From positions 905,061 through 969,060 of the forward strand of contig NZ_JAODIW010000006.1 of assembly GCF_026586625.1 (NCBI RefSeq): 64,000 bases of DNA, in the 5' to 3' direction. The DNA comes from Halobium salinum (GTDB taxonomy: Archaea; Halobacteriota; Halobacteria; Halobacteriales; Haloferacaceae). The position numbers were made by a program, and so were the translations under genes. The notes under the pieces were generated by a model that made no database searches, had not been told where the DNA came from, and worked only from the letters and a program-made list of their open reading frames with translations. Shown here in pieces: positions 57,059 to 60,706 of this stretch (position 1 is the first letter of the stretch; each line of letters opens with the position of its first letter).

Positions 57059-58168
57059 CTATTCCGGCCGCTCGATGGCTTCGAGACTCGCCGCCACGAG
57101 CAACGGGAGCGTGATGGTCGCGTCGCCGACGACGGTGACGTTGCGGGCGTCCTTCTCCAGTTTCCCCCACGAGCGCGCCTCGTCCAGTGTCGCCCCGGAG
57201 AGCCCGCCGGTGGCCTCGTGGTCCATCGTTAACTGGACGCCGTAGTCGTAGGCTCCGGGCGTGACGAGCATCGTCTGGAGCGTGAAGTTCTTCGGGACGC
57301 CGCCGCCGACGAGCAGACAACCCGCCGTCTCGGCCTCGAAGGCGAGGTCGGTGAGGGGGGTCATGTCCGCGAGCGCGTCGAGCGAGAAGTCGGAGGTCTG
57401 TGCGTACATCCACGCCTGCAGGCCGAGGACGGAGTCCTGCACCGCCGGACAGTAGATTGGCACGTCCGACTCGTAGGCCGCGGCGGCGACGCCGGCGTCC
57501 TCTTCGACCTCCTCCCGCTCGTTCACCTCGGCGTTCGCCCGCCCGAGTTCGCGGACGAACCGCTCGATGCTCACGACCCCCTCCTCCGCCAGGGGCGGGA
57601 ACACCTCCTCGCGCAGGTGGGACTCGAAGTGAGCGAAGTACTCCTGTGGGAGGTAGACGTTGAAGATGCGGTCCACTCCCTCGTCGCGCAGCGTCTCGTC
57701 GTGTTCGCGCGTCGTCTTCCCCTCGGCGTGCTCGGCCCCGTGGTGGTGCTTGCCGCCGATGGCCTCGATGGCGTCGTGGGTGAGGTTCGCCCCGGTCGTG
57801 ACGAGAGCGTCGACGTACCCGTCGCGAATCAGGTCCGAGACGATGCGGCGCATCCCGGTCGGTACCATCGCGCCGGCCAGCGAGAGAAAGACCGTACAGT
57901 CCTCGTCGGCGAACATCTCCGCCGTCACGTCGACCGCCTCGTGCATCTTGGCGGCGCCGATGCCGGCCTTCCCGTACTCGCCGGCGAGGTCGCCGACCGT
58001 CATCCCGGCGCGCACCTCGGCGTGGGAGACGGGGTCGTGGTCGAACGTCTCGCGGTGGGGGGTGTGGTGGCCGTGTTCGTCGCGGTCGTCCCGGTCGTCG
58101 TGGCCGTGGCCACCCTCGGAAGCAGAATCGGCGTCCGTCTCGGGGTCGTGTCCGGCGTCGTCTGTCAT
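57059..58168 (-). CDS. Deoxyhypusine synthase
   Basis: Transfers the aminobutyl part of a polyamine to a Lys of aIF5A in the first step of hypusine formation, using NAD. The 369-residue protein shows the family blocks LAGAMVPTGMRRIVSDLI, TTGANLTHD, and the catalytic Lys in GGGVPKNFTLQ. An unusual His-rich leader (HGHDDRDDRDEHGHHTPHRE, about residues 22-42) precedes the core and could bind metal. ATG at 58168 is chosen. It lies with a Nif3-like gene, a 31-residue ORF, an agmatinase-like gene and aIF5A, forming a hypusine-related cluster. In haloarchaea the polyamine donor may be agmatine. Confidence 0.94.
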   Translation of the reverse strand: MTDDAGHDPETDADSASEGGHGHDDRDDRDEHGHHTPHRETFDHDPVSHAEVRAGMTVGDLAGEYGKAGIGAAKMHEAVDVTAEMFADEDCTVFLSLAGAMVPTGMRRIVSDLIRDGYVDALVTTGANLTHDAIEAIGGKHHHGAEHAEGKTTREHDETLRDEGVDRIFNVYLPQEYFAHFESHLREEVFPPLAEEGVVSIERFVRELGRANAEVNEREEVEEDAGVAAAAYESDVPIYCPAVQDSVLGLQAWMYAQTSDFSLDALADMTPLTDLAFEAETAGCLLVGGGVPKNFTLQTMLVTPGAYDYGVQLTMDHEATGGLSGATLDEARSWGKLEKDARNVTVVGDATITLPLLVAASLEAIERPE

Positions 58169-58307: not shown

Positions 58308-59075
58308 CTACAGCCCCGTCGGCTCGTCGACGTACGTCGTCTCCAGCCCCCACCCCTCGGCCAGCCCCATCAGGGAACGGACGCCGAACGTCTCGGTCGC
58401 GTAGTGACCGGCGAGAACGACGTTCAGGCCGGCCTCCTTCGCCTCGTGGTACGCTTTCTGCTTCCCCTCGCCGGTGACGAGGACGTCGGCGCCGACCTCG
58501 ACGGCCTCGTCCAGCCAGTCGACGCCGCTCCCCGTGACGACCGCCACGTCCTCGACCTCGTCGGGCCTGAAGTCGAGCACCTGTACGCCTTGGGCCCCGG
58601 TGTCGAGTTCGGCGTCGAGCGTCGTCGCCAGCCGCGAGACCGACATCGACTCGGGGAGTCGACCCCGCTGACCGATGTGCTCCGGCCCCAGCTCGCCGAA
58701 CGGCTCCCGACCGCCGAGGTCGAGCAGGTCGGCGAGGCCGGCGGCGTTGCCGAGTTCCCCATGGCCGTCGAGCGGGAGGTGCGAGACGTACAGCGGGAGG
58801 TCGTTCTCGACCAGCGGGGCGACGCGGTCGTACGCACGGCCGGTCACGCGGTCGAGGCCACCCCAGACGACGCCGTGGTGGGTGACGAGGAGGTCGGCGC
58901 CGGCGTCGACGGCGGTCTCCATCGTCGAGACCGCGGCGTCGACGGCGAACGCGACGTGCTCCACCTCGGCCTCGCGCGGGCCGACCTGCAGGCCGTTCGG
59001 GCTGGCGTCGAGGTCGGCGTAGGCGTCGGTCCGGAGGCGCTCGTCGTAACGGTCGACGACGTCGGATAGCTTCAT
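58308..59075 (-). CDS. Nif3-like dinuclear metal-center protein
   Basis: A 255-residue Nif3/DUF34-type protein, cytosolic. It opens MKLSDVVDRYDERLR and has the metal segments LVTHHGVVWGG and AGHYATETFGV, plus the central Glu. Members often bind two metals; GTP cyclohydrolase-1-like or hydrolase functions have been suggested, but the cellular role is unclear. Only 140 bases separate it from deoxyhypusine synthase and about 177 from the 31-codon ORF on the other strand. ATG at 59075 is the conserved start. Confidence 0.9.
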   Translation of the reverse strand: MKLSDVVDRYDERLRTDAYADLDASPNGLQVGPREAEVEHVAFAVDAAVSTMETAVDAGADLLVTHHGVVWGGLDRVTGRAYDRVAPLVENDLPLYVSHLPLDGHGELGNAAGLADLLDLGGREPFGELGPEHIGQRGRLPESMSVSRLATTLDAELDTGAQGVQVLDFRPDEVEDVAVVTGSGVDWLDEAVEVGADVLVTGEGKQKAYHEAKEAGLNVVLAGHYATETFGVRSLMGLAEGWGLETTYVDEPTGL

Positions 59076-59251
59076 GCGACGTCGATGGGCCGGACGGGGT
59101 TTGTAGCCGGCGGTCCGGGTCGCCGACACCGTCGAGTCGTGAAATCGAAGCGTCAACTCTGCCAGCAGCCTTATCGGGGACACCGGCGTAGTCGGAGTTA
59201 CCGTTCCTTGTGTGGGAGCGGCCGCGAGCGGTCAAGCAGGGTGAAACTGTC

Positions 59252-59347
59252 ATGGGTAAGTTCCGCAAGGCACTGTACGCGTGGCGACGTCTCCCGAGGA
59301 AGACGCAGAAACGCATCAAACGCAAAGTACGCCGTCTGTTCCGGTAG
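59252..59347 (+). CDS. 31-residue arginine/lysine-rich peptide
   Basis: ATG at 59252 opens MGKFRKALYAWRRLP and ends at TAG 59345-59347. About 16 of 31 residues are Arg or Lys and none is Asp or Glu, the opposite of the surrounding acidic proteome. A Shine-Dalgarno-like GGTGA (59240-59244) lies seven bases before the ATG. Hydrophobic residues (F4, L8, Y9, W11, L14, I22, V26, L29, F30) spread through the helix suggest an amphipathic helix. It lies on the plus strand between the minus-strand Nif3-like and agmatinase-like genes. I do not recognise a family; an RNA-, ribosome- or membrane-binding role is possible. Confidence 0.5.
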   Translation: MGKFRKALYAWRRLPRKTQKRIKRKVRRLFR

Positions 59348-59452
59348 GTCAGGCACGAGCCGACGCCTGCTGGAAGCCGCTCCGTTTCGACACCGAATCG
59401 ACGAGCCCCGGCTCCGTCTCGCCCGGTCGATACGTTCGACGTGCGCTACCGG

Positions 59453-60298
59453 TCAGTCCCCGGCCGCGTGAGCGAACACGAACTCCTTCAGCAGTTTCCC
59501 CGCCAGCGACGCGGCCTGCCCGTCGTCGCGGTCGTTCACCTCGACGACGTCGAAGCCGGCGGCGTGCGGGGCGACCGCGCGGACGACATCGCGCATCTCC
59601 CGGGGCGAGAGGCCGAACGGCTCCATCGTCCCCGTTCCGGGAGCGAACGCCGGGTCCGCGCCGTCGATGTCGACCGAGAGGTACACCGACCGGTCGCCGA
59701 AGTCGGGTTCCCAGTCGGCGACGTCCTCGGGCGGGACGACGGTCACGTCCGGTTCGTCGGCGCGCTCCCACTCCGCCTCGGAGCCGGTGCGGGCGCCCAG
59801 AATCACCGCCTCGTCGACCGGACCGTCGTCCTCGTCCGGGTCGTCGCCGACGCCGGGGTCGCCGTCGAGCAGGCGCCGGGTGACCGTCGCGTGGCTCCAC
59901 GGGTTCCCGTCGTACGCCGTCCGGAGGTCGAGGTGAGCGTCGAGGACGACGAGGACGTCGGGGGCGACGGCGCGGGCGCCCGCCGACGTGACGGTGTGCT
60001 CGCCGCCGAGGAGGAGGGGAACGGCGTCGTCCCAGACGACGTCCCGACAGGTCCCTTCGAGGTAGTCGAGATAGTCGGGGGCGTCGTCCCACGCCCGCAC
60101 GTCGCCAGCGTCGTGGACCGATAGCTCGGAGAAGCGCAGGTCGGTCCGGCGGTCGTAGTCGTCGAACGTCTCGGCGAACCGCCGGACGCGCTCGGGACCG
60201 AAGCGGGTGCCCGGCTGGAACGTGGTCGAGACGTCGAGCGGCGCGCCGACGACGACGTAGTCGGCGGTCTCGCGGTCGGCCGTTGCCCCGGGGAACAT
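59453..60298 (-). CDS. Agmatinase/ureohydrolase-family protein
   Basis: A 281-residue ureohydrolase. The manganese-binding motifs are complete: GGEHTV, DAHLDLR, and SVDIDGADPAFAPGTG, with the GTMEPFG extension. In most organisms agmatinase makes putrescine and urea from agmatine. It lies 33 bases downstream of aIF5A on the same strand, within the hypusine cluster. Work on Haloferax volcanii has linked an agmatinase-like gene to hypusine formation, possibly removing the guanidine group from an aIF5A-bound agmatine intermediate; I recall this from the literature and it should be checked. Family membership is certain; the exact substrate is not. Confidence 0.88.
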   Translation of the reverse strand: MFPGATADRETADYVVVGAPLDVSTTFQPGTRFGPERVRRFAETFDDYDRRTDLRFSELSVHDAGDVRAWDDAPDYLDYLEGTCRDVVWDDAVPLLLGGEHTVTSAGARAVAPDVLVVLDAHLDLRTAYDGNPWSHATVTRRLLDGDPGVGDDPDEDDGPVDEAVILGARTGSEAEWERADEPDVTVVPPEDVADWEPDFGDRSVYLSVDIDGADPAFAPGTGTMEPFGLSPREMRDVVRAVAPHAAGFDVVEVNDRDDGQAASLAGKLLKEFVFAHAAGD

Positions 60299-60331: not shown

Positions 60332-60706
60332 TCAGACGACCTTCCGCTGGCCCTCGTACTCAAGGTACTCGATCTCGTCGTCCGGCGAGAAGTCCTCGTC
60401 CTCGGGGACGCGCATCGTGAACGTCTGGTAGGTGTCGAGGTCCATGACCTGCGCGTCGTTGCCGCTGACGGAGACGACTTGGCCCCCCTTTCGCTCGATG
60501 ATGGGCACCCAGACTTTGGCGTCGACGGGCTGGCTCAGGCTACGCTTCTTGCCGTCGAACACGCCCTTCCCCTCGATACGGGCCTTCGCACTGCCGTGCT
60601 TGCCCGGCTTGGCCGTACTGTAGGCGTTGATTTTACAGGGGGAGTCCTCCATCATCAGGTAGCTTCCCTCCTGCAGTTCGCGGACCTGCTTCTGCTCTTT
60701 CGCCAT
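60332..60706 (-). CDS. Translation initiation factor 5A (hypusinated)
   Basis: Binds near the ribosomal P site and promotes translation of difficult sequences. The 124-residue protein has the SH3-like N-terminal half with the hypusination loop PGKHGSAK, whose Lys36 aligns with Lys50 of human eIF5A, and an OB-fold C-terminal half ([20 protein letters not shown]). It starts [14 protein letters not shown]. Immediately downstream is the agmatinase-like gene, and the deoxyhypusine synthase lies 2 kb away on the same strand, so the modifying and modified proteins are grouped. Confidence 0.96.

Follow-up and report, generated by a model that had tools for sequence, protein, structure and literature searches.

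The catalytic residues of the RelE fold, known from the RelE/ParE toxins (phrog_1213, PF05016), sit in the beta sheet. Among ribosomal proteins, eL41 and bS22 are short peptides of alpha-helical form in which positively charged residues make up 55-65%, and bS22 and bL37 are lineage-restricted proteins found in ribosome structures (excerpts of PMC10085706). For the type I toxins aapA and hok, 5'-3' closed mRNAs have been described (excerpts of PMC6733600). In haloarchaea, excerpted descriptions of Haloferax volcanii report zinc-finger micro-proteins of less than 70 amino acids, which carry two C(P)XCG motifs.

The window analysed here is a stretch of 64,000 nucleotides from Halobium salinum. 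Its positions 59252-59347 are almost certainly a real, overlooked and conserved microprotein gene of haloarchaea (the microgene; Table 1). It adds to the proteins of haloarchaea a widely distributed family that is absent from Pfam and NCBIfam and sits within a well-conserved translation-factor cluster.

Residues 5-30 of the microprotein align with residues 8-33 of RelE-like proteins and share the pattern A-(6)-L-(6-7)-R-I/V-(2)-K. In contrast to RelE/ParE, the microprotein possesses no beta sheet; its 30-42 residues are predicted to be all-helical, whereas the RelE-like model comprises 88 positions. It is therefore not expected to cleave mRNA in the manner of RelE. Moreover, the microprotein is extremely basic whereas the hairpins of haloarchaeal RelE-like proteins are acidic, and no antitoxin gene was seen adjoining the microgene. 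With eL41, bS22 and bL37 the microprotein shares a very short, highly basic, helical chain; it differs from eL41 and bS22 in its two predicted helices with a Leu-Pro break and in that its ribosome binding is putative. An identity with eL41 was rejected, as PF05162 is not among the matches of 43 family members at E<=10. This model found nothing over its cut-off in 20 haloarchaeal genomes, and the control M. jannaschii also stayed under the cut-off, so that the model is weak. Like the type I toxin genes aapA and hok, the microgene is a short ORF with a Shine-Dalgarno (SD) sequence, and its flanks tend to be complementary across the ORF; unlike them, it shows no general SD masking over all loci, encodes a peptide that is not hydrophobic, and occupies a stable chromosomal position. 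The zinc-finger micro-proteins are likewise short and haloarchaeal, but all 45 distinct microprotein peptides are devoid of Cys.

Table 1. Features of the microgene locus, with positions counted within the window.
Feature	Position	Strand	Sequence or extent	Basis
Microprotein ORF	59252..59347	+	MGKFRKALYAWRRLPRKTQKRIKRKVRRLFR, 31 codons, then TAG	Translation; intact orthologues at 49 loci, the window's own among them; purifying selection
SD-like sequence	59240..59244	+	GGTGA, 7 nt before ATG	Read in sequence
Promoter-like element with TATA-like part	59161..59176	+	GCCAGCAGCCTTATCG, start at -91	Scores 12.8, where the 99th percentile of shuffles is 10.5
5' arm of putative 5'-3' stem	59215..59222	+	GGAGCGGC	Complementarity; the permutation test spans all 49 loci, not this locus alone
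3' arm of putative 5'-3' stem	59376..59383	+	GCCGCTCC, then GTTTC	Complementarity; the permutation test spans all 49 loci
Deoxyhypusine synthase (DHS) gene	57059..58168	-		Pfam PF01916, E 3.3e-93
DUF34/NIF3 gene, divergent to microgene	58308..59075	-		Pfam PF01784, E 4.5e-61
Arginase-family (agmatinase/SpeB-like) gene, convergent to microgene	59453..60298	-		Pfam PF00491, E 1.6e-54
Translation factor IF5A gene	60332..60706	-		Pfam PF21485, E 4.2e-16

Composition, neighbourhood and distribution

A preliminary description of this DNA had proposed a 31-codon, Arg/Lys-rich ORF without acidic residues on the plus strand. Translation confirmed this proposal: Lys accounts for 6 and Arg for 9 of the residues (together 48%), and the peptide has neither Asp nor Glu. 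The GC-rich DNA of haloarchaea contains many spurious Arg-rich frames, and composition alone is therefore unconvincing. The microgene nevertheless stands out from the 75 ATG-initiated ORFs of 25-60 amino acids in the window. Among these, the microgene alone reaches a K+R content of at least 45%, and it alone combines at least 40% K+R with zero acidic residues. Its Lys fraction is 19%, compared to 7.5% for the next highest ORF; it is therefore not an ordinary GC-rich out-of-frame ORF. A chance Arg-rich ORF is ruled out by this outlier position in combination with the orthologue matches across 392 genomes.

As had been suggested, the genes on either side are read from the opposite strand, according to their Pfam assignments. 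The gene order corresponds to that of HVO_2300-2297 in Hfx. volcanii, whose agmatinase-like gene is essential and has been placed in IF5A modification by clustering (excerpts of PMC5178350). For the count of synteny, 48 loci were considered, with the window excluded. SpeB lies downstream of the microgene in 42 and Nif3 upstream in 41 of them, always on the opposite strand; both genes flank the microgene in 38 loci and neither does so in 3 at the threshold used. At loci L159, L160 and L185 the neighbours are lost.

The conserved position within the IF5A-agmatinase-NIF3-DHS cluster and the findings on the Hfx. volcanii agmatinase-like gene would fit a basic peptide that adjusts the modification of IF5A by binding either to the agmatinase-like enzyme or to IF5A itself, which is acidic. 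We consider such a role in the hypusine pathway, be it as a partner or as a regulator, rather improbable. The link to hypusination is drawn solely from the neighbourhood, the microgene is located on the opposite strand with a promoter element of its own, the neighbours can be lost, and the cluster occurs without the peptide in many haloarchaea.

A first protein search in 60 genomes yielded 12 strong matches with E values up to 7.1e-5, own genome included. Profiles with 12 and then 43 rows were used to search 392 genomes of the order. The 43-row profile gave 49 matches in 48 of the 392 genomes and in 16 of 95 genera, all with E values up to 1.6e-12; scoring was confined to 19 candidates in each genome, and more distant relatives may have escaped it. 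The weak hits L187, L188 and L189, which belong to the 51 fetched stretches, were left out of the counts, as were four further weak hits in the survey of SpeB loci and the E<=10 lists obtained with the window peptide alone. Outside the order, 294 genomes of the phylum (haloarchaea included) gave one match, which is weak and lies within a 535-aa frame.

In the preliminary description, absent orthologues or disrupted frames were regarded as evidence against the gene. All 49 retrieved loci contain an ATG start and an intact frame, and the conservation of the microgene is well beyond chance. The orthologous peptides have a length of 30-42 aa and a median K+R content of 45%, and acidic residues are absent from 38 of the 45 distinct peptides. 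Invariant over 43 aligned peptides are M1, K3, W11, P15 and I22.

The distribution is patchy. A microgene is found beside 15 of 80 named SpeB loci, in Halegenticoccus, Halogranum, Haladaptatus, Halogeometricum, Haloprofundus, Halomarina and Halalkalicoccus. A clean empty site, with a SpeB-Nif3 gap of just 32-160 bp, is present in 13 of the 65 SpeB loci without microgene; the others have a wider gap, or their Nif3 is outside the stretch read. No microgene occurs in any Haloferax locus read. The distances between the peptides correlate with those of SpeB, IF5A and Nif3 (Spearman 0.38, 0.22 and 0.33; 0 of 999 permutations each). These data fit a mainly vertical inheritance with many losses, and transfer may also have contributed. 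Because of the patchy distribution with clean empty sites, the microprotein is not a core ribosomal protein.

Halocatena salina possesses two copies with identical peptides on the plasmids NZ_CP096021.1 and NZ_CP096020.1 (L182, L183, L219). Both adjoin short, decaying SpeB remnants, and the annotation of NZ_CP096020.1 calls its remnant a hypothetical protein of 49 aa. On these plasmids, the microgene has outlasted the enzyme gene that was copied along with it. The PLSDB table lists no annotated feature for either microgene copy, in agreement with the earlier view that the gene is below the reach of gene finders. One pattern scan for viral carriage resulted in a single hit, which is a different 61-aa peptide.

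Selection and coding strand

The preliminary description had proposed low nonsynonymous change and the same location in relatives as marks of a genuine gene. Both were observed, the latter in the 38 of 48 loci that have the microgene between SpeB and Nif3. In 192 pairs at 70-99% identity, the mean pS is 0.43 and the mean pN is 0.15; within six groups, pN is comparable with that of the flanking SpeB and Nif3. Changes at the third codon position amount to 2021, compared to 1116 and 586 at the other positions. However, in 49/49 loci the first 90 nt are also free of stops in an antisense frame that has this wobble phase too, and the third-position pattern by itself therefore leaves the strand unfixed. 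It is the invariant ATG, the SD sequence and the drop of identity past the sense stop that fix the sense strand. In 7/7 groups, identity peaks over the ORF relative to the stretch past the stop.

The pS value of the microgene is lower than those of SpeB and Nif3 in 6/6 groups (one of which contains a single SpeB pair) and lower than that of IF5A in 4/6 groups. This lower synonymous divergence suggests a second constraint at the level of the RNA, namely RNA structure, or a strong codon preference. Taken together with the open antisense frame and with the 5'-3' complementarity described below, it could also be ascribed to a conserved structured or antisense RNA with a fortuitous frame, or to a gene on the other strand. 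Such a reading without a protein product is very improbable in view of the fixed ATG in all loci, the SD sequence at the sense start and the loss of conservation past the sense stop. Furthermore, the two remaining sense frames stay open in just 25/49 and 20/49 loci, the antisense open frames have no common ends and lengths between 42 and 461 codons, and no Rfam family matches the microgene. On the minus strand of the window, a GTG frame of 52 codons (59198-59356) covers the microgene from the opposite side.

Expression signals and mRNA structure

The SD sequence GGTGA, noted earlier at a distance of seven bases from the ATG, is present. An SD match of 5 nt or more precedes the microgene in 38/49 loci, as opposed to 8.8% of 882 control stretches. 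At the starts of the neighbouring genes such matches amount to 3/41 for Nif3, 2/34 for SpeB and 4/41 for IF5A (9/116 in total). The supposition that the microgene may have its own promoter is strengthened by a 16-nt element, GCCACCACGGTTAAGA, which scores above the 99th percentile of shuffles in 39/49 loci, this one included, and mostly starts 74-91 nt before the ATG. The element is kept where Nif3 is more than 1 kb distant (L145, L146) or missing (L160) and is therefore not merely the promoter of Nif3. Its position predicts a leader of approximately 40 nt. A leadered, SD-driven and structured mRNA would be unusual in comparison to Hfx. volcanii, where 72% of transcripts are leaderless (excerpts of PMC4983044). 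In the related loci L164 and L168, which lack an SD sequence, a TATA-like TTTATA stands approximately 30 nt ahead of the ATG, as if their microgene had become nearly leaderless.

The 40 nt past the stop were examined for complementarity to the leader (-42 to -10), using pairings within and between loci. The longest stem has a mean length of 6.24 within loci and of 5.36 between loci (0 of 5000 permutations). Stems of at least 6 bp occur in 30/49 loci, compared to an expectation of 18.4, and some loci lack one. Examples of paired arms are GCGAGCGA/TCGCTCGC (Haloprofundus), CGAGCGG/CCGCTCG and GAAAAGCG/CGCTTTTC (two Haladaptatus-like groups), AGCCGTTCGCT/AGCGAACGGCT (L177) and GGAGCGGC/GCCGCTCC (the window). 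The motif CGAGCG, which constitutes one stem arm, is found in the leaders of 16/49 loci and in 1 after shuffling. When each of 24 lineages was represented by a single locus, the test weakened to a median permuted fraction of 0.0033, and the values for five control comparisons were 0.02, 0.018, 0.41, 0.93 and 0.45. As two of these controls are close to 0.02, the test is not perfectly clean. When the flanks were shuffled and the SD sequence and the ORF were kept fixed, the folding energy (MFE) of the whole transcript had a mean z-score of -1.43, with values below -2 in 17/49 loci and of -2.0 for the window. A putative 5'-3' stem closing the mRNA is moderately supported. Taken over all loci, the data give no support to a general masking of the SD sequence by the 3' end, the mean helix being 6.10 and 6.07 with native and shuffled 3' ends, respectively.

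Because 5'-3' closed mRNAs have been described for aapA and hok (excerpts of PMC6733600), behaviour like that of a type I toxin is the main rival explanation, albeit an unlikely one. The microgene would then encode a basic amphipathic peptide that inhibits growth. Pairing of the 5' and 3' flanks would keep its mRNA silent, perhaps together with antisense RNA produced when transcription reads through the IF5A-speB-NIF3-DHS strand. The short, cationic and amphipathic peptide, the strong SD sequence, the complementary flanks with low folding energies, the aapA mRNA of the same anatomy, the patchy distribution with plasmid copies in Halocatena and the RelE-like sequence would all be compatible with such a module. 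They have to be weighed against the missing SD masking, the lack of a membrane-spanning hydrophobic stretch and the stably conserved chromosomal position; furthermore, no antisense RNA is known for the microgene. If the peptide is toxin-like, it would provide an archaeal case of type-I-like control.

A minor point is a local hairpin within the leader. A perfect stem of at least 5 bp is found in 24/49 loci, compared to 7.9 after shuffling, but the mean folding z-score of the leader is just -0.4, and the leader of the window contains no more than a 3-bp stem at the hairpin site.

Predicted structure and possible role of the peptide

AlphaFold2, supplied with the 43-row alignment, predicted helices at residues 3-13 and 16-30 with an LP break in between (mean pLDDT 87, pTM 0.36). 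The helical moments are 0.48 and 0.47, compared to 0.27 and 0.23 after shuffling. The peptide is thus predicted to be an extremely basic pair of amphipathic helices joined at a conserved Leu-Pro.

Searches by sequence in Pfam, NCBIfam, PADLOC and the PDB and by fold with Foldseek/VIA identified no convincing relative, and literature searches for the peptide motifs and for archaeal small or ribosome-associated peptides found no description of the microgene among the papers listed. Chains named RecA (1357-2050 residues, E 0.00094 to 0.02) were taken as chance hits, which were gone in the profile search. In PHROGs, the most frequent match is phrog_1213, a RelE-like toxin, with 7/43 members and a best E value of 0.0024. 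An hhalign comparison with a profile of 14 haloarchaeal RelE-like proteins covered 26 columns with a score of 20.0, a single-comparison E value of 0.0011 and a probability of 20%. This score was reached by none of 100 column shuffles on either side; scores did not exceed 13.4 among four neighbouring families or 12.1 among 135 window tiles. The Pfam model PF05016 (RelE/ParE) matches 0/43 members. It is plausible to assume that the peptide has either descended from, or converged on, the N-terminal hairpin of RelE-type proteins.

The basic helix pair, the RelE-like hairpin sequence, the IF5A neighbourhood and the signs of post-transcriptional control in the mRNA lead us to favour, tentatively and at somewhat less than even confidence, an accessory RNA-binding protein. 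It would most likely be ribosome-associated and work like a detached RelE-type N-terminal hairpin. The helix pair might dock on rRNA via its Arg/Lys faces, and the microprotein, lacking the catalytic beta sheet, would be incapable of cutting mRNA. Its mRNA would probably be under post-transcriptional control by means of the structured leader and the 5'-3' closing stem. The clean empty sites and the patchy distribution argue against an essential ribosomal role; the microprotein may rather be a dispensable, repeatedly lost modulator of translation. The hhalign probability of just 20% and the lack of PF05016 matches weigh against the favoured interpretation, and so does the outcome of the complementarity test with one locus per lineage and its two low controls.

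Alternatively, the high hydrophobic moments of both helices and the median K+R content could reflect another role of an abundant basic helix pair, such as binding to DNA or to an acidic membrane surface. This role appears quite unlikely, given that the sequence leads to RelE-type proteins instead. A more far-reaching version of the favoured ribosome-associated role is distinctly doubtful: a RelE-type hairpin without nuclease sheet would have become a free ribosome-binding haloarchaeal microprotein, its gene would run antiparallel within the IF5A/hypusine cluster, its mRNA would be 5'-3' closed, and read-through of this cluster would exert natural antisense control. The result would be a self-regulated translation brake with the mRNA architecture of a type I toxin.

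If the microprotein binds to the ribosome, it would be an archaeal counterpart to overlooked proteins of the bS22/bL37 type. Haloferax volcanii is a genetic model. Since the microgene is absent from the Haloferax loci read, the ribosome-binding and the toxin-like interpretation are directly testable in this organism.

At positions 4001-4100 of L187, a long transducer-like protein also bears a weak similarity to the microprotein in its N-terminus (MGKFGAAWRTIERRLPNRIRKRY...; domain E 7e-4). This likeness is probably that of a chance amphipathic start.
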